Position numbers and translations under genes: made by a program
In this document: positions 19,452-29,753 of the stretch, piece by piece
Position numbering within the stretch: position 1 is the stretch's first letter
How the letters are laid out: every line of letters begins with the position of its first letter
The notes under the pieces: model-generated
Told to the model about the DNA's origin: nothing
Databases searched by the model: none
The model's input: the letters and a program-made list of their open reading frames with translations, nothing else
From: Pseudotamlana agarivorans
Lineage (GTDB): Bacteria; Bacteroidota; Bacteroidia; Flavobacteriales; Flavobacteriaceae
Length of the DNA stretch: 64,000 bases
Assembly: GCF_018860245.1 (NCBI RefSeq)
Contig: NZ_JAHKPD010000020.1
Span: 1 to 64,000 of the forward strand
Direction of reading: 5' to 3'

Positions 19452-19503
19452 AAGATTTAAAAAAAGATTTATCCCAAAAAGGTATAAATCTATTTTAAAT
19501 CTT
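19452..19503. promoter_or_regulatory. Inverted repeat upstream of the CarH-like regulator
   Basis: Four copies of AAGATTTA-type octamers lie as two inverted pairs: 19452-19459 and 19464-19471 in one orientation, 19485-19492 (TAAATCTA) and 19496-19503 (TAAATCTT) in the other. Together they make 21-base arms with few mismatches. The right arm touches the -7 element TAACTTTG at 19503. This is a candidate autoregulatory operator; an RNA hairpin is not expected, since it lies upstream of the transcript start. Confidence 0.55.
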
Positions 19504-19510
19504 AACTTTG
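19503..19510 (+). promoter_or_regulatory. Candidate -7 element of the CarH-like gene
   Basis: TAACTTTG fits TAnnTTTG and lies 21 bases before the TTG start at 19532. No convincing -33 TTTG is seen; the inverted repeat occupies that space. Confidence 0.5.
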
Positions 19511-19531
19511 TTTATTAAAAATGAAATATAG

Positions 19532-20425
19532 TTGAACAATATTAAAAAAGATTTTACGATAAAAGATCTTGAGAATCTCTCAGGAATAAAAGCACATACC
19601 ATTCGTATTTGGGAGAAAAGGTATAACCTATTATCACCCCAAAGAACAGACACCAACATTAGGCATTATTCTTCAGGAAGCTTACAGAAATTATTAAATG
19701 TTGCTTTACTTAATAAGAACAATTATAAGATCTCTAAAATAGCTGAGATGTCTGATGAAACCATAAAGGTGAAGTCTAGGGAGCTTGCTATTAAGACAGC
19801 TACCAGCGATGAAGCTATAAACGCTTTTAAGTTATCTATGTTTGAGTTTGATAAAGTCTTGTTTAACAGTACTTATAATAAATTACTTCATAAGAAAACC
19901 TTCCGTGAAATCTTCAAAGATGTGTTTGTGCCTTTTCTGGATCATATTGGTTTATTATGGCAAACTGAAACGCTAATCCCTGCACACGAGCATTTTATAT
20001 CTAATTTGATCTCTCAAAAAATTCAGATTAATATAGATGTTTTAGAATCTACGGTATTAAATTCTAAGGCGATTTACGTGTTGTTTTTACCCGATAATGA
20101 AATCCATGAACTGGGATTGATGTTCTTAAATTACGAATTAACTTTAAGAGGGCATCGTACCATTTATCTCGGACAAAGTTTACCATTAAATAATTTAGAT
20201 TACTTTTTTGAATGTGAAGACGCCATTAGTTTCGTGACTTCTTTAACTGTTCAGCCTTATGACGATAAGGTTGTAGATTATTTTAGAGCATTAGAATCGG
20301 CATTAAAAGATACTAAGCATAACTTAATAGCCTTTGGAAAAAAAACTAGCCTTGTAAATGATCTACAATTTGAAGGCAATATCACTATATATCCATCACT
20401 TCTTGAGCTGTTAAAAGCACTATAA
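19532..20425 (+). CDS. MerR-family regulator with cobalamin-binding domain (CarH/LitR-like photoreceptor)
   Basis: The N-terminal MerR HTH is clear (FTIKDLENLSGIKAHTIRIW, residues 8-27). Residues about 95-170 match the helical four-bundle of B12-binding domains, with Trp143 and Glu153-His154 forming W-x9-E-H. Residues 175-297 are the Rossmann B12 domain, with E190-I-H192-E-L-G195 as the E-x-H-x-x-G cobalt-ligand loop. CarH proteins bind adenosylcobalamin, hold DNA as tetramers in the dark, and release it when light breaks the Co-C bond. Residue 144 is Gln; as I recall, Thermus CarH has His132 at this position. The start is TTG 19532, since no in-frame ATG precedes Met73. It directly precedes the carotenoid/photolyase genes. 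Confidence 0.9.
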   Translation: MNNIKKDFTIKDLENLSGIKAHTIRIWEKRYNLLSPQRTDTNIRHYSSGSLQKLLNVALLNKNNYKISKIAEMSDETIKVKSRELAIKTATSDEAINAFKLSMFEFDKVLFNSTYNKLLHKKTFREIFKDVFVPFLDHIGLLWQTETLIPAHEHFISNLISQKIQINIDVLESTVLNSKAIYVLFLPDNEIHELGLMFLNYELTLRGHRTIYLGQSLPLNNLDYFFECEDAISFVTSLTVQPYDDKVVDYFRALESALKDTKHNLIAFGKKTSLVNDLQFEGNITIYPSLLELLKAL

Positions 20426-20458
20426 TATATTTTGTAAAATAATTTTGTTTAACATTAT

Positions 20459-20490
20459 TTTGTTTTGTTTAAACAAAATATATATCTTTG
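20459..20490 (+). promoter_or_regulatory. Promoter of the carotenoid/photoprotection operon with embedded palindromic operator
   Basis: TTTG (20459-20462), a 20-base spacer and TATCTTTG (20483-20490) form a canonical promoter. The spacer holds the perfect 16-bp palindrome TTTTGTTTAAACAAAA (20463-20478). Related half-sites are TTTTGTTTAA at 20443 (20 bp upstream) and the inverted pair TTGTTTAA 20536 / TTAAACAAAA 20560 in the leader. An operator between the -33 and -7 boxes is the hallmark of MerR-family control. The leader before the FAS1 ATG is about 135 bases. Confidence 0.75.
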
Positions 20491-20631
20491 ACTATGTTTT
20501 GATGATCAGAACATATTTTTTTATCTAATCTAAAATTGTTTAATCTTTTTTAGTTTTTATTAAACAAAAGTCTAGGTTACCCAAAATGGACTATAAAAAA
20601 TAGAGTAGGTCTTAATTAAAAAATAAAAACC

Positions 20632-21603
20632 ATGTTAATTAAAAACCAGATTCCCGCAATTGCAATGTGCTTATTATTAAGCTTTAGCTTTTTAACATCA
20701 TGTAGTAGTGATGACGATGGCAATGAAGAACCTATGCCTAAAACCATAGTGGATATCGCTGTAGCAACACCAGATTTAAGTATTTTAGTTGCAGCCTTAG
20801 AGCGTGCAGATTTAGTTGATGCATTAAATGGCGACGGACCTTTTACCGTGTTTGCGCCTAATAATACCGCCTTTATTGAATTATTAGATTCTAATCCAGA
20901 TTGGGATGGCCTAGAAGATATTCCTGTAGCTACCTTAAAATCTGTGTTACTATTTCATGTATTGAATGCTAAAGTTATGGCTTCCGATTTATCGAACACT
21001 TATGTGAATACCATGGCTATGGGACCGAATGACGAAGCTTTATCATTACAAGTAGAAACATCTGGAGCAGTTGAGTTTAATGGAGATGCTAAACCTTTAA
21101 CAACTGATATTATGGCGTCTAACGGCGTGATACATACCATTGATAAAGTGATGCTTCCACCTAATATTGTATCTTTAGCATTAAACAATGCTGTATTTTC
21201 AACATTAGTGGCTGCATTAACCGACAGTAGACATACTACAGATTTTGTGTCTGTACTGTCTGGAAACGGGCCATTTACAGTTTTTGCACCAACAAATGAT
21301 GCTTTTCAGGCCTTATTAGATTCAAACCCTGCATGGAGTGGATTAGGAGATATTCCTATAGCAACTTTAGACGCTGTTTTAAAATATCATGTAGTGAATG
21401 GGGCTAATGTTCAATCAGATCAATTGTCTAACGGAGATATCACAATGCTAAGTGGAGGTATGATTACTATTGATTTATCTAGTGGTGCTCAAATCATGAC
21501 ATCAAGTAGTCAAACAGTTGATATTATTGTTGGTGAGGCTACTAGCGATGTGCAAGGAACAAATGGTGTTATTCATGCGGTAAATATGGTGCTTTTACCA
21601 TAA
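20632..21603 (+). CDS. Lipoprotein with two FAS1 (fasciclin) domains
   Basis: The lipoprotein signal ends LLSFSFLTSC, followed by an Asp-rich spacer. Two FAS1 domains of about 140 residues follow (about 35-175 and 178-323). Each has the hallmark FTVFAPNNTAF or FTVFAPTNDAF and the H2 motif GVIHTIDKVMLPP or GVIHAVNMVLLP. FAS1 proteins mediate adhesion or bind lipophilic ligands, and some FAS1 relatives carry carotenoids. It is the first gene behind the palindromic promoter and lies 51 bases before crtI, so it is probably cotranscribed. A role in carotenoid display or surface adhesion is inference. Confidence 0.88.
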   Translation: MLIKNQIPAIAMCLLLSFSFLTSCSSDDDGNEEPMPKTIVDIAVATPDLSILVAALERADLVDALNGDGPFTVFAPNNTAFIELLDSNPDWDGLEDIPVATLKSVLLFHVLNAKVMASDLSNTYVNTMAMGPNDEALSLQVETSGAVEFNGDAKPLTTDIMASNGVIHTIDKVMLPPNIVSLALNNAVFSTLVAALTDSRHTTDFVSVLSGNGPFTVFAPTNDAFQALLDSNPAWSGLGDIPIATLDAVLKYHVVNGANVQSDQLSNGDITMLSGGMITIDLSSGAQIMTSSSQTVDIIVGEATSDVQGTNGVIHAVNMVLLP

Positions 21604-21654: not shown

Positions 21655-23136
21655 TTGAAAAAAAGCATCTACATCATTGGTTCGGGTTTTTCAGCCTTAT
21701 CAGCCTCATGTTATCTTGCACAAGCTGGGTATCAAGTGATTGTTTTGGAAAAAAATAAAACAATAGGAGGTCGAGCGAGGCAATTGTTAAAAAACGGATT
21801 TACTTTCGATATTGGCCCAACTTGGTATTGGATGCCAGATGTTTTTGAGAAATTCTTTGCAGATTTTGGTAAAAAGCCTTCAGATTTTTATGAGTTAGAA
21901 AAATTAACACCTGCCTATCAAGTCTATTTTGATAAAGCCGATTCTATTACGATTCCAGGAAATCTAGAAGCTATTTATAAGGTTTTTGAAGAAGAAGAAA
22001 AAGGCAGTTCAAAACATCTGAAGGCTTTTCTTAAATCTGCCGCTTATAATTACGATGTGTCTATAAATGATTTGGTTTATAAACCGGGTGCTTCGCCTTT
22101 AGAATTGGTGACTCCAGTAACGATAGGTAAAATTACTCAGTTTTTTTCAACCATAAGAAAGCAAGTTAGAAAACATATTAAGAGTAAAAAACTCATTCAA
22201 ATCTTGGAATTCCCTGTGTTATTTCTAGGAGCTAAGCCAAGTAACACCCCTGCTTTTTACAATTTTATGAATTATGCAGATTTCGGATTAGGAACTTGGC
22301 ATCCTAAAGGCGGTATGTATAAAGTTATTGAGGCCATGGTTGACTTAGCAACATCGCTAGGTGTTGAATTTAGAACAGAAGCCAATGTTCAGGAAATTAA
22401 AGTAAATACTGAAGGCCAGGTAAATGGACTTGTGGTAAATGATGAGTTAATCGAAACGAAAATGGTTTTAAGTGGTGCCGATTACCATCATACAGAAACC
22501 TTGTTACCCGAATCATTTAGGCAATACACAGAAAAATACTGGGATAATAAAGTCTTTGCGCCATCCTCGCTATTGTTTTATGTGGGCTTTGATAAAAAAC
22601 TGGATCAGGTAAGTCATCATACACTTTTTTTCGATACCGATTTTGATGCGCATGCTAAAACAATTTATGATAATCCAAGCTGGCCAGAAAAGCCATTATT
22701 TTATGCTAGTTTTCCCTCTATTACAGATGCTAGTTTTGCTCCAGAAAATCAGGAAGCTGCAACTTTTCTAATTCCGTTGGCTCCTGGTATAAAGGACACG
22801 CCTAAAATACGTGAGCATTATTTTAAACTCATTATAGATAGGTTAGAGAAACTTACCAATCAAAAGGTTGAAGCGCATATTCTGTTTAAAGAAAGTTTCT
22901 GTGTAAACGATTTTATAAAAGACTATAATTCATATAAAGGTAATGCCTACGGATTGGCAAATATTCTAACACAAACAGCTTTTTTAAGACCAAAAATTAA
23001 AAGTAAAAAAGTGACAGGCTTATTTTTTACAGGTCAACTAACGGTTCCTGGACCCGGGGTTCCTCCATCATTAATTTCGGGTAAAATAGCCTCAGATTCA
23101 ATTTTAAAAACTTACAAGAATGAAACAATTATTTGA
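21655..23136 (+). CDS. crtI: Phytoene desaturase CrtI
   Basis: The 493-residue FAD enzyme begins with the dinucleotide fold IIGSGFSALSASCYLAQAG and ends with the CrtI signature FFTGQLTVPGPGVPPSLISG. It converts phytoene to lycopene. The start is TTG 21655, placed so the FAD motif begins at residue 7. It overlaps crtB by 17 bases. The length is normal for bacterial CrtI. It is membrane-associated rather than membrane-spanning. Confidence 0.95.
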   Translation: MKKSIYIIGSGFSALSASCYLAQAGYQVIVLEKNKTIGGRARQLLKNGFTFDIGPTWYWMPDVFEKFFADFGKKPSDFYELEKLTPAYQVYFDKADSITIPGNLEAIYKVFEEEEKGSSKHLKAFLKSAAYNYDVSINDLVYKPGASPLELVTPVTIGKITQFFSTIRKQVRKHIKSKKLIQILEFPVLFLGAKPSNTPAFYNFMNYADFGLGTWHPKGGMYKVIEAMVDLATSLGVEFRTEANVQEIKVNTEGQVNGLVVNDELIETKMVLSGADYHHTETLLPESFRQYTEKYWDNKVFAPSSLLFYVGFDKKLDQVSHHTLFFDTDFDAHAKTIYDNPSWPEKPLFYASFPSITDASFAPENQEAATFLIPLAPGIKDTPKIREHYFKLIIDRLEKLTNQKVEAHILFKESFCVNDFIKDYNSYKGNAYGLANILTQTAFLRPKIKSKKVTGLFFTGQLTVPGPGVPPSLISGKIASDSILKTYKNETII

Positions 23137-23962
23137 TGATGTTTCTTACTCGTGCAGTAAGTTAGTCACCCAGAAATACAGTACATCGTTTACTTTAGCC
23201 ACTAGAATGTTGGCGCCTAAAATACGTGCAGACATCTATAATATTTATGGTTTCGTTCGCTTTGCAGATGAAATAGTAGACTCCTTTCACGATTACAACA
23301 AAGAGCAATTATTTTTAGAGTTTGAGAACGAATATTATGAGTCAAAATCTAGAGGCATCAGTCTTAACCCGATTATAAATTCATTTATTCATACGGTTAA
23401 TAAATATGATATTCCAGATGATTTGGTAAGGGCTTTTTTAAAGAGCATGAAAGCAGATTTGTATAAAACCAGATATGTTTCTGATGATGAGTACAAGGCT
23501 TATATTTACGGTTCTGCAGACGTTGTAGGACTTATGTGTTTAAAGGTTTTTGTGAATGGTGACCAAGAAAAATACGATGCGCTTAAATTTGCTGCCATGC
23601 GCTTGGGGTCTGCCTTTCAAAAAGTGAATTTTTTACGTGATTTAAAAGATGACTATGAAGTTTTAAATCGCTCATATTTTCCGAACATAAATTTTTCATC
23701 CTTAGACGATAGCTCTAAAGAGTCAATTATTAAAGAAATTGAGGAAGATTTTGATTTTGCTTTCCAAAACGGGGTTTTAAAACTTCCTGTTGAAGCTAAA
23801 TTTGGAGTTTATATGGCTTATCGTTATTATTTGAGATTACTAAAAAAATTAAAAAACGTATCTTTTTCTGAGATTATGGAAACTCGAATTAGGGTTTCTA
23901 ATACGATGAAAATAAATTTGTTAGCAAGAAGTTACGTGAAGTATAAATTAAATATCATTTAA
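23120..23962 (+). CDS. crtB: Phytoene synthase CrtB
   Basis: The 280-residue trans-isoprenyl diphosphate synthase condenses two geranylgeranyl-PP into phytoene. Both Asp-rich motifs are present: DEIVD (in FVRFADEIVDSF) and DLKDD (in VNFLRDLKDDYEV). A YxxxSF-type N-terminus (KYSTSFTLATRML) is also seen. It overlaps crtI, and its TAA shares a base with the next gene's ATG. No crtE (GGPP synthase) is in the window, so the precursor must be made elsewhere. Confidence 0.95.
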   Translation: MKQLFDDVSYSCSKLVTQKYSTSFTLATRMLAPKIRADIYNIYGFVRFADEIVDSFHDYNKEQLFLEFENEYYESKSRGISLNPIINSFIHTVNKYDIPDDLVRAFLKSMKADLYKTRYVSDDEYKAYIYGSADVVGLMCLKVFVNGDQEKYDALKFAAMRLGSAFQKVNFLRDLKDDYEVLNRSYFPNINFSSLDDSSKESIIKEIEEDFDFAFQNGVLKLPVEAKFGVYMAYRYYLRLLKKLKNVSFSEIMETRIRVSNTMKINLLARSYVKYKLNII

Positions 23963-24399
23963 TGACTTTGTTTCTTTTCCATATATTTATGATGCTTGTA
24001 CCAAATATGAATGAGCCAGATTTTATTGAAGAATATCATTCGGCTTTAACTAAAGTAAAAGAGCAGCAATTTATTGCTAAGTATGAAAGTAGCAGCAATA
24101 TTGATATTCAAGCATATGTGATTTCATTTAAAATGAAGCAAGCAAAATATGAGTTGATGCCTTGGAATAAAATGAAAGTTTTTAGTACGTATAAAAATCA
24201 ATTAGAAAAGCTCATTTCTGAACATTCGGAAAATGTACATTTAAGATATGTTCGATTAGTAATTCAAGAAAATGTACCGGTAATTTTAAATTATAGTTCC
24301 GACATTGAAAATGATAAAGCCTATTTAATTAAAATGATGAAACTTCAAGATAATACCGATTATCTTGATCCTTACATCACAAAAAACACGTCAATATGA
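23962..24399 (+). CDS. Unknown protein encoded inside the carotenoid operon
   Basis: This 145-residue protein has a hydrophobic N-terminus (MTLFLFHIFMMLVPNMNEP), possibly a signal or membrane anchor, then a mostly helical hydrophilic body (AYVISFKMKQAKYELMPWNKM; HLRYVRLVIQENVP). Its ATG overlaps the crtB stop and its stop overlaps the crtZ ATG by 4 bases, so it is translationally coupled on both sides. I do not recognise a family. Its position between phytoene synthase and the hydroxylase suggests an accessory or assembly factor for the pathway; that is inference. Confidence 0.75.
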   Translation: MTLFLFHIFMMLVPNMNEPDFIEEYHSALTKVKEQQFIAKYESSSNIDIQAYVISFKMKQAKYELMPWNKMKVFSTYKNQLEKLISEHSENVHLRYVRLVIQENVPVILNYSSDIENDKAYLIKMMKLQDNTDYLDPYITKNTSI

Positions 24400-24851
24400 A
24401 CGGATTTGTTTTTTTAGGAATTACATTATTAACCTTCGTTGTTATGGAAGGTGTGACTTGGTGTACGCATAAATATGTCATGCATGGTTTTGGTTGGTTT
24501 TTGCATGAAGATCATCATCAACCAGGTTATCCGCATGCTTTCGAGAAAAATGATGCCTTTTTTGTTGTTTTTGCGATTCCAAGTATACTATTGTTTTACT
24601 TCGGAATTAGACCAGAATTAAACGTCCTTTTCTTTATCGGATTAGGGATTTTCTGTTACGGAGTCGCTTATTTTTTAATTCATGATGTCTTGATTCATAA
24701 GCGGTTTAATTGGTTTAAAAACACAAAAAATCAATACCTAAAAGGTTTAAGAAAAGCACATAGAATACACCATAAACATTTGGATAAACCCGATGGTGAA
24801 TGTTTTGGTATGTTGTTCGTGCCTTTTAAATATTTTAAGAAATCACAGTGA
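24396..24851 (+). CDS. crtZ: Beta-carotene hydroxylase CrtZ
   Basis: This 151-residue membrane di-iron hydroxylase of the fatty-acid hydroxylase superfamily has all histidine clusters: HKYVMH, HEDHH, HDVLIH and HRIHH. It adds 3-OH groups to the rings of beta-carotene to give zeaxanthin. Four hydrophobic segments are visible. It overlaps its neighbours on both sides by 4 bases. Confidence 0.95.
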   Translation: MNGFVFLGITLLTFVVMEGVTWCTHKYVMHGFGWFLHEDHHQPGYPHAFEKNDAFFVVFAIPSILLFYFGIRPELNVLFFIGLGIFCYGVAYFLIHDVLIHKRFNWFKNTKNQYLKGLRKAHRIHHKHLDKPDGECFGMLFVPFKYFKKSQ

Positions 24852-25546
24852 ATATATACTTGTATTTAATTCTAAATTTAGGAAGCTTAAGCATCCCTCT
24901 GCTTTATAGTATTTTTGAGAAAAAATTTCATTTCATTCAGTATTTTAAAGCAGCATGTTTTAGTATACTGATTGTAGCTGTTCCTTTTTTAATTTGGGAT
25001 GCCTTATTTACAAAAATGGGGATTTGGGGTTTTAATCCAGATTACCACTTGTCTTATTTGATTTTTAACATGCCCTTTGAAGAATGCTTGTTTTTCTTTT
25101 GTATTCCTTATGCTTGTTTGTTTACTTATGAAGTGATTCGGTATTATTTTCCCACCTTTAAATTATCAAAAGCGGCAACGATACTAGTTGGTTTGCAGTT
25201 ATTAATTCTAACTGGGACTTTGCTGATTTTCAATTTCGGAAAATGGTACACTACCGTTAACTTCATGTTTTTTATCATTTTAACTTTATACGGACTAAAA
25301 TATCACCTAGAAACCTTAAGGTCCTATTTGCCAGTGTTTGCAATAATTTTAGTGCCATTTTTTTTAGTGAACGGGGTGCTTACAGGTAGTTTTATTGAAT
25401 CACCTGTTGTTTGGTATGATGATTCTGAAAATCTAGGATTTCGTTTGTTTACGATTCCTTTTGAAGATGTTTTTTACGCTTTTAATATGTTGTTTTCTGT
25501 GCAATTAATTTTTAATTTTTTTATAAGAAAATACTATGATAAATAA
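24848..25546 (+). CDS. Lycopene cyclase (fused CrtYcd-type membrane protein)
   Basis: The 232-residue polytopic protein has two lycopene-cyclase-domain repeats. The first has PFEECLFFFCIPYACLF, the second PFEDVFYAFNMLFSVQL. This is the CrtYc+CrtYd arrangement of heterodimeric cyclases fused in one chain, different from the soluble FAD-type CrtY. It cyclises lycopene to beta-carotene. The start is GTG 24848, overlapping the crtZ stop, and the 3' end overlaps tspO by 11 bases. Confidence 0.9.
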   Translation: MNIYLYLILNLGSLSIPLLYSIFEKKFHFIQYFKAACFSILIVAVPFLIWDALFTKMGIWGFNPDYHLSYLIFNMPFEECLFFFCIPYACLFTYEVIRYYFPTFKLSKAATILVGLQLLILTGTLLIFNFGKWYTTVNFMFFIILTLYGLKYHLETLRSYLPVFAIILVPFFLVNGVLTGSFIESPVVWYDDSENLGFRLFTIPFEDVFYAFNMLFSVQLIFNFFIRKYYDK

Positions 25547-26009
25547 CAAATACATACGATTTATAATCTTTATAGCTGCTAATTTTTTAGCCTTAGGTGT
25601 TGGCGTTATTTTGATGGATAATGGTCCGCAATCCGAGTGGTACACTTCGCTTAATCAAGCACCATGGACGCCTCCTAATTGGGCTTTTGGTGCTGCATGG
25701 TTTACGATTATGTTTCTCTTTTCGTTTTATATGACAAGGTTGAGCTTTCAATTTCAGCTATTAAATAAATATCTAGTATCAATATATAGTTTGCAATGGG
25801 TATTAAATGTGAGTTGGAATTATATATTCTTCAATAAACAGGAGGTTTTCATTGGATTGATGGTTATTACTTTGCTCTGGTTACTAATTGGATATTTTAC
25901 CTTCAAATTCATTAAAAAACTAAATTGGTATACACTATTAATTCTACCTTATTTAATTTGGATGAGCATCGCTACCAGTTTGAATGCCTATATATTGTTT
26001 AATAATTAA
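25536..26009 (+). CDS. tspO: TspO/MBR tryptophan-rich sensory protein
   Basis: The 157-residue protein has five predicted helices and the TspO signatures GPQSEWYTSLNQAPWTPPNW and NVSWNYIFF. TspO binds porphyrins and can promote their light-dependent breakdown. In photosynthetic bacteria it tunes pigment gene expression with oxygen and light. Its place in a putative light-induced operon fits porphyrin photoprotection. It overlaps the cyclase gene. Confidence 0.92.
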   Translation: MINNKYIRFIIFIAANFLALGVGVILMDNGPQSEWYTSLNQAPWTPPNWAFGAAWFTIMFLFSFYMTRLSFQFQLLNKYLVSIYSLQWVLNVSWNYIFFNKQEVFIGLMVITLLWLLIGYFTFKFIKKLNWYTLLILPYLIWMSIATSLNAYILFNN

Positions 26010-26018
26010 ATCATTCAC

Positions 26019-27449
26019 ATGAAAATTCTCGTTACAGGAACTACTGGGTATATAGCAAAGCGGTTAATACCGATTTTGCTAGAAAATAACCATACGTTAG
26101 TTTGTTGTGTGCGAGATTTAAATAGAACACCTTCAGAATTTAATAAACATCCTTCAGTTGAATTTTTAAAAATTGATTTCTTAAAGCCTTCAGAAGTCAA
26201 ATTTCCTGAAGACTTAGATGCCGCATATTATCTCATTCATTCTATGGCAACAAGCGGTTCTGATTTTGAAGATCTAGAAAAAACCTGCGCTGAAAACTTT
26301 AAAAGTCTTATTGAACGCACCTCATGTAAGCAGGTACTTTATTTAAGTGGGATCGTAAATGGCGATGTTTTATCTAAGCATTTAAAATCAAGGCTTCAGG
26401 TTGAAGAAACACTGCGTTCGAAGCATTATAACCTAACAACCTTTAGAGCAGGAATCATTGTAGGAAGTGGGAGTGCCTCTTTTGAAATTATTAGAGACCT
26501 GGTTGAAAAACTACCAGTAATGGTTACACCTAAATGGTTAAATACAAAAACACAACCCATTGCCATTCGTGATGTTTTAAGTTTTTTAGAAAAGGCATTA
26601 GGCCATGAAAAAACGTATGGTAAATCATTTGATATTTGTGGTCCTGAAATTCTAACCTACAAGGAGATGTTACTTCAATTTGCTGAAGTTAGAGGTTTTA
26701 AACGTTACATCATGACCTTACCGGTGCTAACTCCAAAACTGTCTTCCTATTGGCTGTATTTTGTGACATCAACGTCATTTAAGCTAGCACAAGCCTTAGT
26801 TGATAGTATGAAGGTTGAAGTGATTGCTAAACCCAATAATATCAATGCCATTATAGGTGTAAATCCTATAGATTATAAAACTTCCGTTGCATTGGCGTTT
26901 CAAATTATAGAGCAAAATACAGTGGTGTCTAGTTGGAAAGACGCCATTAGTAGTGGCGTTATTCATAATCAGTTGAGTGAGCATGTTCAAATACCGCAAT
27001 TTGGTTGTTTTAAAGATGTACGTTCTAGAAAGATTAAAAATGAAGAAAAGACTATGCTTAAAATATGGTCCATTGGCGGTAAAAATGGATGGTATAAACT
27101 CAACGGCTTATGGAAGCTTAGAGGATTTATAGATCAAATATTTGGAGGTGTTGGTTTGCGAAGAGGTAGGAGGGATGATTCAGACTTAAGAGCTGGGGAT
27201 GCTTTAGATTTTTGGCGGGTTTTATTGGCAGATAAAGAACAGAAAAGACTATTGCTTTTTGCTGAAATGAAACTACCTGGAGAAGCTTGGTTAGAGTTTG
27301 AAATTATTGAAGGAATCTTGCATCAGCGGGCCGTTTTCAGACCAAAAGGGCTTTTAGGAAGAATGTATTGGTACGCCGTACTACCTTTTCATGCTTTTGT
27401 GTTTAAAGGAATGATTGATGAATTAGTGGCCACTAGAAAAACAGGATAA
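26019..27449 (+). CDS. SDR-type NAD(P)-binding protein with DUF2867 domain
   Basis: Residues 1-300 are an atypical short-chain dehydrogenase (VTGTTGYIAKRLIPIL at 5-20; AYYLIHSMATSG). The C-terminal 150 residues (GLRRGRRDDSDLRAGDALDFW) match DUF2867. The 476-residue fused form is often encoded beside photolyases and SRPBCC proteins. The substrate is unknown. It begins 9 bases after tspO, and its stop overlaps the next ATG (TAATG). Confidence 0.85.
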   Translation: MKILVTGTTGYIAKRLIPILLENNHTLVCCVRDLNRTPSEFNKHPSVEFLKIDFLKPSEVKFPEDLDAAYYLIHSMATSGSDFEDLEKTCAENFKSLIERTSCKQVLYLSGIVNGDVLSKHLKSRLQVEETLRSKHYNLTTFRAGIIVGSGSASFEIIRDLVEKLPVMVTPKWLNTKTQPIAIRDVLSFLEKALGHEKTYGKSFDICGPEILTYKEMLLQFAEVRGFKRYIMTLPVLTPKLSSYWLYFVTSTSFKLAQALVDSMKVEVIAKPNNINAIIGVNPIDYKTSVALAFQIIEQNTVVSSWKDAISSGVIHNQLSEHVQIPQFGCFKDVRSRKIKNEEKTMLKIWSIGGKNGWYKLNGLWKLRGFIDQIFGGVGLRRGRRDDSDLRAGDALDFWRVLLADKEQKRLLLFAEMKLPGEAWLEFEIIEGILHQRAVFRPKGLLGRMYWYAVLPFHAFVFKGMIDELVATRKTG

Positions 27450-27949
27450 TGAGTAAAAATAAGGATATCGAAATTTTTAATTTTAACATACATGTAAACC
27501 CAAACAAATGGTATCAAATCAGTGATACTGTTATGGGTGGTGTTTCTAATTCTAGCATGTTAGTTGATGAAAATGGTCATGGTGTATTTTCCGGTAATGT
27601 ATCGCTGGAAAATAATGGTGGGTTTACAATGACACGTTTGCCTGTAAAAATAAACATCACAGCGCATCATAAAAAAATAGAGTTACATCTAATTGGTGAT
27701 GGTAAAACCTACCAGTTTAGAATAAAATCTACAAGTTCTCAGTTTTATTGGTATATACAGTCTTTTGAAGCTAAAAAAGGCGAACAGAAAGTAGAACTTC
27801 TTCTAAAAGATTTTTATCCATCCTATCGCGGTAATACATTGAAATTGGATAATTTTTCGGCAGATTCCATAAAGGAAATAGCTTTTTTTATTGGGAACAA
27901 AAAAGATGAATCGTTCAATTTAGTTATCGATAAAATTTTATTGAAATAA
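27449..27949 (+). CDS. CIA30-family protein
   Basis: The 166-residue beta-sandwich protein has WYQISDTVMGGVSNSSM at residues 22-38, the core signature of the CIA30 (complex I intermediate-associated) domain, which resembles a carbohydrate-binding galectin-like fold. Bacterial members are uncharacterised and often linked to SDR proteins. No signal peptide is present. It is translationally coupled to the SDR gene. Confidence 0.82.
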   Translation: MSKNKDIEIFNFNIHVNPNKWYQISDTVMGGVSNSSMLVDENGHGVFSGNVSLENNGGFTMTRLPVKINITAHHKKIELHLIGDGKTYQFRIKSTSSQFYWYIQSFEAKKGEQKVELLLKDFYPSYRGNTLKLDNFSADSIKEIAFFIGNKKDESFNLVIDKILLK

Positions 27950-27982: not shown

Positions 27983-28468
27983 ATGATGCTATTCAAAAAA
28001 CATTCAGGAATATACACGCTTTATACAGAACAAACTTTAAATATTTCGTTAGAAGAAGCTTGGGCATTTTTTAGTGATCCGAAAAATTTGGCCAAAATTA
28101 CGCCTCCAAAAATGGGTTTTGAAATCACTTCAGAAGTAGATAAAACAGCTTATCCCGGACAAATAATAACCTATAATATAGGTGTTTTTCCTGGGGTTCT
28201 ACAAAGTTGGGTTACTGAAATAACCGAAGTGAAAAGGCATGAATTTTTTATAGATGAACAACGCTTTGGTCCTTACAAAATGTGGCATCATGAACATTTT
28301 TTTGAAAAAGTTTCTTACGGGAAAACGCTCATGCGAGATAAGGTGTCTTATAAATTACCTTTTGGTTTTTTAGGGCGCTTAGCGCATCGTGTGTATGTGA
28401 AAAATGAATTAAAAACTATTTTCAATTATAGATATAGCATCTTAGAAGCACGATTCAATGGAAAATAA
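27983..28468 (+). CDS. SRPBCC-family (START/Bet v1-like) protein
   Basis: The 161-residue protein begins IYTLYTEQTLNISLEEAWAFFSDPKNLAKITPP, split here as a hydrophobic-ligand-cavity fold with the usual SRPBCC N-terminal strand and helix, and continues with FGPYKMWHHEHFFE. Members near photolyase genes are often misnamed cell division inhibitors. A bound lipid or pigment is possible. Its end overlaps the photolyase start by 11 bases. Confidence 0.82.
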   Translation: MMLFKKHSGIYTLYTEQTLNISLEEAWAFFSDPKNLAKITPPKMGFEITSEVDKTAYPGQIITYNIGVFPGVLQSWVTEITEVKRHEFFIDEQRFGPYKMWHHEHFFEKVSYGKTLMRDKVSYKLPFGFLGRLAHRVYVKNELKTIFNYRYSILEARFNGK

Positions 28469-29753
28469 AATAGCTGTTTTTTGGTTTCGCCGTGATTTAC
28501 GTTTGGAAGATAACGTAGGGCTTCATCATGCTTTAAATTCTGGGTATAAAGTATTACCAATTTTTATTTTTGATGAAGAAATCATAAGTACTTTACCTAA
28601 ACAAGACGCTCGAATTACATTTATACATGATAGTTTAAAAGACATAGATGATCGGCTTAAAGCTATTGGTCGTTCGCTTCAAGTTCTAAAAGGGAAGCCT
28701 TTGGAGGTTTGGGGGGAACTGATTTCAGATTATAATATTGCGGAAGTCTTTTTTAATAAAGACTATGAACCTTATGCCTTAAAAAGAGATGAGGGTGTGA
28801 AGTCTTTGCTTAAGTCCCACGACATAGAAATGCATGCTTATAAAGATCAAGTAATTTTTGAAGGGGATGAAGTATTAAAAGCAGACCAAACACCTTATAC
28901 GGTTTATACACCTTATAAAAATCTGTGGTTAAAACAATTTGATGCTAAAAAGCATACTAAAACATATGATTGTAAAACTTCGGAGTACAATTTTTTAAAA
29001 CTAGATATAAATTTCCCAGCACTTGAAAGTTTTGGTTTTTCTGAAAGTTCTATTAAAGTAAAAGCATATAATCTTGATGATTTAAATGAATATGATACCG
29101 TTAGAGATTATCCAGCCTTAGATAAAACTTCTAATTTATCGCCTTACTTGCGGTTTGGGTTAGTGAGTATTCGAGCTATTGTAACCCATGCTTTAAATAC
29201 CAATGCCGTTTTTTTAAGCGAACTTATTTGGCGGGAATTTTTTATGCAAATATTATTTCATTTTCCTAAAGTTGTTACCCAAAATTTTAAACAAAAATAT
29301 GATGCTGTTGTTTGGAGAAATCATGAGGTAGATTTTAAAAAATGGTGTAATGGGCAAACAGGTTACCCATTAGTTGATGCTGGTATGCGCGAATTGAATG
29401 AAACCGGATACATGCACAATAGGGTACGTATGATTACAGCAGGATTTCTCTGTAAACATTTATTAATTGATTGGCGGTGGGGTGAAGCCTACTTTGCAGA
29501 AAAATTATTAGATTTTGAGTTAGCTTCCAATAATGGGAACTGGCAATGGGCTGCAGGAACTGGATGTGATGCTGCTCCATATTTCAGAATATTTAACCCG
29601 ACCACTCAAATTCAAAAATTTGATAAAAACCTAGAATACATAAAAAAATGGGTTCCAGAATTTCAAGAGTTAACTTATCCCTTACCAATAATAGATCACA
29701 AGGAAGCACGAGAAAGGTGTTTAAAGGTGTATCGTGACGCTCTTAATAGTTAG
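28458..29753 (+). CDS. phr: Deoxyribodipyrimidine photolyase/cryptochrome family
   Basis: The 431-residue flavoprotein has an N-terminal antenna domain (FWFRRDLRLEDNVGL) and a C-terminal FAD domain (LSPYLRFGLVSIRA; ELIWREFFMQ; GYPLVDAGMREL; HNRVRMITAGFL; NNGNWQWAAGTGCDAAPYFR). The motifs are those of class I CPD photolyases, which repair UV pyrimidine dimers with blue light. A purely sensory cryptochrome cannot be excluded. It is the last gene of the light-linked operon and is followed by a strong terminator. Confidence 0.92.
   Translation: MENKIAVFWFRRDLRLEDNVGLHHALNSGYKVLPIFIFDEEIISTLPKQDARITFIHDSLKDIDDRLKAIGRSLQVLKGKPLEVWGELISDYNIAEVFFNKDYEPYALKRDEGVKSLLKSHDIEMHAYKDQVIFEGDEVLKADQTPYTVYTPYKNLWLKQFDAKKHTKTYDCKTSEYNFLKLDINFPALESFGFSESSIKVKAYNLDDLNEYDTVRDYPALDKTSNLSPYLRFGLVSIRAIVTHALNTNAVFLSELIWREFFMQILFHFPKVVTQNFKQKYDAVVWRNHEVDFKKWCNGQTGYPLVDAGMRELNETGYMHNRVRMITAGFLCKHLLIDWRWGEAYFAEKLLDFELASNNGNWQWAAGTGCDAAPYFRIFNPTTQIQKFDKNLEYIKKWVPEFQELTYPLPIIDHKEARERCLKVYRDALNS

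Follow-up and report, generated by a model that had tools for sequence, protein, structure and literature searches.

The 64,000-nucleotide stretch of Pseudotamlana agarivorans DNA analysed here (the window) carries a gene for a MerR-family regulator, followed by a long run of carotenoid and photoprotection genes that starts with a fasciclin (FAS1) gene and ends with a DNA photolyase gene (Table 1). The regulator lies directly in front of this FAS1-crt-phr operon, as originally predicted; FAS1 starts 206 bp after the regulator gene, and all genes from FAS1 to the photolyase are on the same strand as the regulator with gaps of at most 51 bp. Homologues of the 145-aa ORF are found in some other crt clusters. 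About 156 bp separate the regulator from the end of a tRNA-His(gtg) gene ahead of it, and 42 of the 73 main-clade loci described below have a tRNA gene on the regulator's strand no more than 400 bp upstream (36 Leu-gag, 5 His-gtg and 1 Lys-ttt), as if the regulator-crt unit had repeatedly been placed behind tRNA genes.

Table 1. Genes and predicted regulatory sites at the regulator locus (window coordinates).
Feature	Coordinates	Strand	Remarks
Operator O1 (predicted)	19507..19540		TTTGTTTA-N18-TGAACAAT; half-sites 26 bp apart, start to start
CarH-like MerR regulator	19532..20425	+	297 aa, TTG start; residues: HTH ~8-75, four-helix bundle ~92-172, Rossmann part ~181-297
Operator O2 (predicted)	20444..20477		TTTGTTTA-N18-TAAACAAA; over -33 region of likely FAS1 promoter
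Likely FAS1-crt promoter	20460..20490	+	By eye; TTG 20460-20462, 20-bp spacer, TATCTTTG 20483-20490
Operator O3 (predicted)	20535..20568		ATTGTTTA-N18-TAAACAAA; between promoter and FAS1 start
FAS1 (fasciclin) protein	20632..21603	+	Lipoprotein-like N terminus; first operon gene
crtI phytoene desaturase	21655..23136	+	Amino-oxidase family
crtB phytoene synthase	23120..23962	+	
145-aa ORF	23962..24399	+	No Pfam or NCBIfam match
crtZ-type carotene hydroxylase	24396..24851	+	FA_hydroxylase family
Lycopene cyclase	24848..25546	+	
TspO/MBR	25536..26009	+	
SDR/NmrA with DUF2867	26019..27449	+	Homologue with own operator in L281
CIA30-like protein	27449..27949	+	
SRPBCC-like protein	27983..28468	+	Pfam match slightly below cut-off; homologues with own operator in L273, L282, L285, L289, L299
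DNA photolyase	28458..29753	+	

The regulator, a single-copy gene in its genome, combines an N-terminal MerR winged helix-turn-helix (HTH) (PF13411, MerR_1; 6.2e-13) with a four-helix domain (PF02607, B12-binding_2; 1.1e-8); a Pfam search of the 297-aa protein gave no match to PF02310. Sequence, Pfam and phmmer agree with the original prediction on where its key elements lie: the MerR HTH, W143-x9-E153-H154 (the Wx9EH motif) in the four-helix bundle, and E190-x-H192-x-x-G195 (ExHx2G, with the axial His). The SxV/T element that follows ExHx2G after x41 is also present, as S237-L-T239. The structure prediction and CarH alignment proposed as a check point the same way, with the predicted model showing the CarH fold in the B12 domain and Thermus CarH (TtCarH) as the top PDB match by phmmer. 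The VIA list of structure matches was filled by the B12 domain, and the scarcity of MerR-domain chains in it carries no information. The best named protein matches come from Tenacibaculum and Polaribacter (60-72% identity).

The regulator had a match in 6/6 genus genomes, in 122 of the 149 family genomes searched (only a short HTH stretch in G009 and G028) and in 91 of 149 class genomes (in at least four, the match was confined to short stretches). We took 100 regions around homologues for comparison; the main clade consists of 73 loci, window included. In 70 of these 73, crtI lies within 1.3 kb downstream on the same strand, and in two more crtB is found there instead. The start codon at the matching place, as picked by script, is ATG in 65/73 and TTG in 8/73, including the regulator of the window. 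W143, E153, H154, E190 and H192 are kept in all 73 main-clade loci, and Wx9EH was found by pattern in 79 of 80 named loci. We also aligned 100 Bacteroidota sequences, omitting beforehand one paralogue that has lost the motifs (L163). At a mean column identity of 53%, the only invariant columns in residues 91-297 were G140, W143, E153, H154, E190, H192 and G214. Judged by these alignments, the regulator's motifs are far beyond chance, and seven invariant columns at this mean identity are what a retained AdoCbl pocket would look like. A CarH fold with AdoCbl-capping residues is supported; AdoCbl binding itself is predicted, and we consider it probable.

The omitted paralogue, L163, is one of three regulator copies in its genome (G261). 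Its HTH is retained, but Trp143 is replaced by Tyr and His192 by Leu; the protein may be an independent CarA-like offshoot within Bacteroidota that does without B12.

The regulator departs from canonical CarH at several positions. According to a review, CarH homologues are defined by ExHx2Gx41SxV/Tx22-27GG together with Wx9EH (PMC8156234). In the regulator, the last spacer is 29 residues long and is followed by G269-K270 rather than GG; most homologues have K, R, Y, N, H, Q or P at the second of these positions, and only 3/100 have Gly. Ser237 is likewise Ser in only 9/100 homologues. The SignatureFinder set for light-responsive cobalamin domains consists of GxxW, EH, GxxH and GxxxP (PMC11796333); the regulator has the first (G140/W143), second (E153/H154) and last (G214/P218), while GxxH reads N189-x-x-H192 (Gly in 16/100 homologues). 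Its score against the NCBIfam CarH equivalog NF052513 was 67.8 bits, compared with a cut-off of 400. Given the GG and GxxH departures, we do not file the regulator as canonical CarH but regard it as a CarH-like variant; the CarH-type label it was first given stands in the sense of working like CarH, not as strict membership. Proteins of this kind, with broken motifs, would presumably be missed by a search that starts from the InterPro B12-binding entry.

The degenerate GG and GxxH motifs and the missing PF02310 match would also suit B12-independent control of the operon, with the regulator answering another partner or signal, such as redox state or a light-induced antirepressor. Myxococcus CarA, for instance, represses without B12 (PMC8156234). 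CarA, however, is told from CarH by the loss of the Trp of Wx9EH (PMC9304148), while W143 is present and invariant in the regulator clade; in fact, 100/100 sequences have W, E, H and the axial His, and L163, with W and the axial His lost, shows what released constraint looks like. The supply of AdoCbl bears on the same question. A PduO-type adenosyltransferase is encoded in 137 of the 149 family genomes, including that of the window, and is uninformative as a discriminating partner because it is nearly universal in the family. Two genomes with the regulator, G013 and G069 (both 99% complete), had no match to PF01923 or PF02572, which favours B12-independent control and counts against the AdoCbl-dependent repressor that we prefer. 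On balance, we consider B12-independent control unlikely.

A further departure concerns the cobalt ligand of the light state. Gln144 had been suggested to stand where Thermus CarH has His132, and this proved right: in the phmmer alignment, Gln144 is paired with the His directly after the Wx9EH Trp in TtCarH, numbered His132 (PMC10442372), which is the upper cobalt ligand in the light state. The substitution is a property of the clade, with Gln144 kept in 72/73 main-clade loci. His132 is itself said to occur in 'many' myxobacterial CarH homologues rather than in all (PMC9304148). The TtCarH variant H132A was mostly tetrameric in the light in one study, while an earlier report had it disassemble (PMC10442372); if it stays tetrameric, loss of the His in the regulator could weaken the light response. 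The protein might then bind AdoCbl but act as a sensor of B12 supply or photo-oxidative damage, showing little photoswitching with the second cobalt ligand missing. However, light-responsive SasPcob has Gln at this place and light-responsive CtMerR has Arg (PMC11796333), so Gln144 does not exclude photochemistry, and the candidate regulon described below includes photolyase, carotenoid and rhodopsin genes. A sensor of this kind, with little response to light, seems to us quite improbable, and light sensing is what we predict for the regulator.

We next turn to the DNA that the regulator may bind. The stretch 20443-20490, singled out in the original prediction, holds the operator-like site O2. 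At O1, the left half-site overlaps the -7 box TAACTTTG (19503-19510), and the right half-site overlaps the regulator's start codon and codons 2-3. The Bacteroidota promoter consensus is TTG..TAnnTTTG (PMC3587595). With O1 on the -7 box and start codon, O2 on the -33 region and O3 further downstream, the arrangement fits steric repression and autoregulation. The 20-bp spacer of the likely FAS1-crt promoter was judged against the usual spacing range of such promoters.

The same geometry recurs across the main clade. The motif TTTGTTTAA, allowing at most one mismatch, occurs near the regulator start (60 bp before to 20 bp after) in 68/73 loci, 49 of them exact, compared with 11% of the 782 further ATG ORFs of these loci; upstream of the regulator, it is fused to the -7 box TAnnTTTG. 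In 53 of the 70 anchored loci, its inverted partner T..ACAA lies exactly 26 bp further on; the runner-up offset had 5 loci, and the mean over the other offsets was 0.19. This second half-site consists of the start codon and codons 2 and 3 (aTG AAC AAt). The Asn2 codon is AAC in 60/63 loci, although AAC makes up only 32% of the Asn codons elsewhere in the same genes and stands at codon 2 in 12/48 other ORFs, a bias that indicates selection on the DNA of the second half-site. The p-value for this bias (2e-26) overstates the case because the loci are related, and shared descent means that the p-values here overstate independence generally. The TtCarH-like arrangement of 11-bp direct repeats was considered and rejected: the 70 anchored main-clade loci showed no direct TTGT..A peak at 11 bp, the spacing of the tandem repeats in a CarH operator. 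On these alignments, inverted half-sites TTTGTTTA / TRAACAAA exactly 26 bp apart are a new operator geometry.

A second group, B, comprises eight loci with Gly, Ser or Thr at position 144; a B-type regulator also occurs in the genus member G004. In L071 and L141-L144, the B-type gene is divergent to the FAS1-crt cluster. The B half-sites are TTTGTC.A / T.GACAAA, alternating every 26 bp (once 25); L142 carries a run of four, as does L140, where the outermost matches the looser TTTGT..A. Among the seven B loci examined for spacing, L141 and L146 had no 26-bp pair. L071, L142 and L143 also have one TTTGTTTAA at -11. The recognition helix reads RIWEKRY in the main-clade rows shown and RKWE.RY in L071 and L140-L144, while L146 has RIWERRY and one TTTGTCCAA. 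The TtCarH half-site is nAnnTnnACAn, used as 11-bp direct repeats (PMC8156234), and its core TnnACA is kept in both main-clade and B half-sites.

The 26-bp pairs could instead belong to another transcription factor, or be promoter or RNA elements, with the MerR protein acting elsewhere. Their conservation is partly that of the promoter, as the left half-site shares TTTG with the -7 box. Yet the inverted half-site falls outside the promoter, occupying the start codon and codons 2-3. The half-sites also vary with the protein, loci with the helix RKWE.RY (L071, L140, L142-L144) having TTTGTC.A-like half-sites at the same spacing, and the core fits the TtCarH half-site. Finally, the sites track the regulator across genomes, even though a few genomes (5/29) have a site and no found regulator. 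Taken together, a target of some other factor or a mere promoter element seems very improbable, and we continue with the pairs as operators of the regulator.

To follow these sites across genomes, we used a strict pair (WTTGTTYA-N18-TRAACAAW) and, as a control, the reversed pattern. The window's own genome has three strict pairs, only at O1, O2 and O3. Elsewhere in the genus, G001, G002 and G003 have three each and G005 two, all at the regulator locus; G004 has none, and the reversed control has none in the six genus genomes. The 149 family genomes contain 342 strict pairs vs 28 for the control. When these genomes are sorted by regulator search score, not by tree, the 110 with a main-type regulator hold 320 vs 19 (at least one site in 104), the 10 with the B type only hold 11 vs 2 (site in 5/10) and the 29 without a regulator hold 11 vs 7 (G139 carries both types and was counted as main; G110, which has a fragment, was counted as B). 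The six main-type genomes without a strict site count against our explanation, as do the five genomes that have a site although no regulator was found in them. One genome with no regulator found, G084, is 81% complete and has six strict sites, one of them before a rhodopsin gene; its regulator may lie in the missing part of the genome.

A relaxed pair was found on the 5' side of the regulator in 56 of the 73 main-clade loci, after its stop in 36 and on either side in 62, leaving 11/73 with none. Of the named loci, 73 of 80 were used, namely those not identical to earlier loci; 60 had the pair on the 5' side and 65 on either side. These named loci (L330-L409) also gave twelve extra relaxed matches on the 5' side, near the start codon, whose gap is 26 and whose starts are 34 bp apart. 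Only 4/20 class-level loci have the pair on either side, so the 26-bp geometry is not general in the class. We also considered the single motif TAnnTTTGTTTAAC as the operator and rejected it: its genome-wide counts equal those of the reversed control (4 vs 4 in G000), showing that the half-site alone defines no regulon, whereas the 26-bp pair does.

Overall, the first proposal, that a B12 photoreceptor controls the carotenoid and photolyase genes, held up in part. Control is strongly supported by the three sites at the locus with none elsewhere in the genome and by the co-occurrence across 149 genomes, and the CarH fold and AdoCbl-capping residues are supported; AdoCbl binding and light sensing stay predictions. 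From sequence data, then, the regulator very probably controls the FAS1-crt-phr operon.

To see which other genes the sites precede, we examined 40 regions around sites away from the regulator, taken among the sites listed and containing 45 sites. A homologue of a window-operon gene starts beside the site in 17/40 (FAS1 in 11, SRPBCC in 5 and SDR-DUF2867 in 1), not counting L274 (CIA30 about 1 kb off) and L298 (FAS1 genes not starting at the site), and a photolyase follows further on in 4 of the 5 SRPBCC regions. The other 23 regions have no such homologue beside the site, which counts against our explanation. Other genes at distal sites, with families searched on one member per group, encode HSP90 (4), GLPGLI-type proteins (4), DUF2452 (2), MsrA, an NmrA-like SDR and, at two sites, a GHMP kinase resembling mevalonate kinase (below cut-off). 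In G039, one site precedes a CrtW-like ketolase gene (below cut-off) and another lies between the genes for proteorhodopsin and a Blh dioxygenase. For the remaining genes, among them those for an orotate phosphoribosyltransferase and a sodium symporter, a connection with light is not obvious. The HSP90-type genes are preceded by the 26-bp pair in L260, L262, L275 and L287, with a TetR-type gene opposite in two; this suggests a protein-damage branch of the regulon.

Rhodopsin genes are also among the candidate targets. A strict pair precedes rhodopsin in 8 of 30 rhodopsin-family loci (matches that include L302, misread; L328, a fragment; and L329, below cut-off), starting 100-160 bp before the matched stretch, and none of the 30 has a strict pair at any other gap from 8 to 28. 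Six of the eight sites are in main-type genomes, the others being in G084, with no regulator found, and G110, with the fragment. G061 carries a site before rhodopsin; the window's own genome has no rhodopsin match.

A dodecin gene was considered as a second target in the window's own genome and rejected as weak, the spacings being 28 and 24 bp, not 26. The arms TTTGTTTAAC...TTAAACAAA stand just before the dodecin gene in G000 and G003, the only two of 29 dodecin loci with both exact arms (L204 and L208 were read in the wrong place). In these two genomes (L172 and L170, 1297-1540 in each), the inverted repeat TTTTGTTTAAC..TTAAACAAAA directly precedes dodecin, and the dodecin gene of G003 has an in-frame stop.

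We therefore propose that the regulator belongs to a Flavobacteriaceae clade of CarH-like repressors that bind AdoCbl. Loaded with AdoCbl, the oligomer would in the dark sit on pairs of inverted half-sites, TTTGTTTA / TRAACAAA, spaced 26 bp from start to start, and block RNA polymerase both at the regulator's promoter and start codon (O1) and at the promoter of FAS1-crt-phr (O2 and O3). Light would break the Co-C bond and loosen the oligomer, allowing expression of the carotenoid, TspO, SDR, SRPBCC and photolyase genes. Because Gln144 stands where Thermus CarH has His132, the regulator cannot form the bis-His light state of that protein; cobalt held by water or Glu, as reported for CtMerR, is more likely. 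Binding to O1-O3, dark repression and release by light are all inferred, but as a whole, an AdoCbl-dependent dark repressor of a photoprotection regulon is the mechanism we think likely.

MerR regulators have been noted beside crt genes in relatives before. In strain GF1, a MerR regulator with a B12-binding domain lies upstream of zeaxanthin genes, and the authors who described it suggested photo-oxidative stress as the signal for control (PMC6974559). MerR genes have also been noted before crtI or in the crt cluster of Sediminicola sp. YIK13 (PMC4732338) and Nonlabens spongiae (PMC11855829). All three genes are apparently of the same family and in the same place as the regulator, although these papers, in the parts available, note only the gene, with no operator, regulon or test. 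In the open-access literature, we found no operator, regulon or test for a Bacteroidota CarH-like protein, nor a link of one to proteorhodopsin. What is already known is a B12-binding MerR protein upstream of crt genes in one relative; what is new is the operator. We also considered MliR of Bizionia as a relative and rejected it; it is MerR-like with a coiled coil, and 'cobalamin' does not occur in the available text of its description (PMC9478572).

Light-induced carotenoids have been reported in this part of the phylum without a known regulator. In Chryseobacterium lacus, no car or lit operon was found in 2020 and a new regulator was proposed (PMC7064467), and in Dokdonia, control of proteorhodopsin expression was said in 2013 to need further work (PMC3587595). 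The present regulator is a candidate with a precise operator code, which predicts the regulon genome by genome, and its clade offers a natural test of the roles of His132 and the GG motif in B12 photoreceptors. We tentatively suggest, with slightly less than even confidence, that the clade is a distinct class of B12 photoreceptor-repressors, with no bis-His light state, a rebuilt nucleotide-tail site and widely spaced inverted half-sites, and that it provides the light switch so far missing for the proteorhodopsin, retinal and carotenoid genes of marine Flavobacteriaceae.

Among known systems, the B12 class is class I of the five LitR classes (PMC9758184). TtCarH, which also regulates carotenoid production (PMC7064467), has the same architecture as the regulator, with a MerR DNA-binding domain, four-helix bundle and Rossmann B12 domain (PDB 5c8a, 5c8d, 5c8e, 5c8f and 8c31). 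The two share Wx9EH, ExHxxG and the half-site core TnnACA at about 20% identity. They differ in that the regulator has Gln where TtCarH has His132, Lys in place of the second GG glycine and inverted half-sites 26 bp apart, whereas TtCarH uses three 11-bp direct repeats. To our knowledge, the photocobilin SasPcob lacks a MerR DNA-binding domain; it has a biliverdin-binding region after its B12 domain (8j2w). CtMerR of Chloracidobacterium (PDB 8jbs and 8jbt) keeps the GxxH signature that is NxxH in the regulator. CarA and CarH of Myxococcus xanthus are likewise MerR-B12 repressors of carotenoid genes, and their recognition helix, RxWERRY, resembles RIWEKRY of the regulator. The Myxococcus system, however, has an operator of ~55 bp, two paralogues and the CarS antirepressor, whereas the genome studied here has one copy of the regulator.
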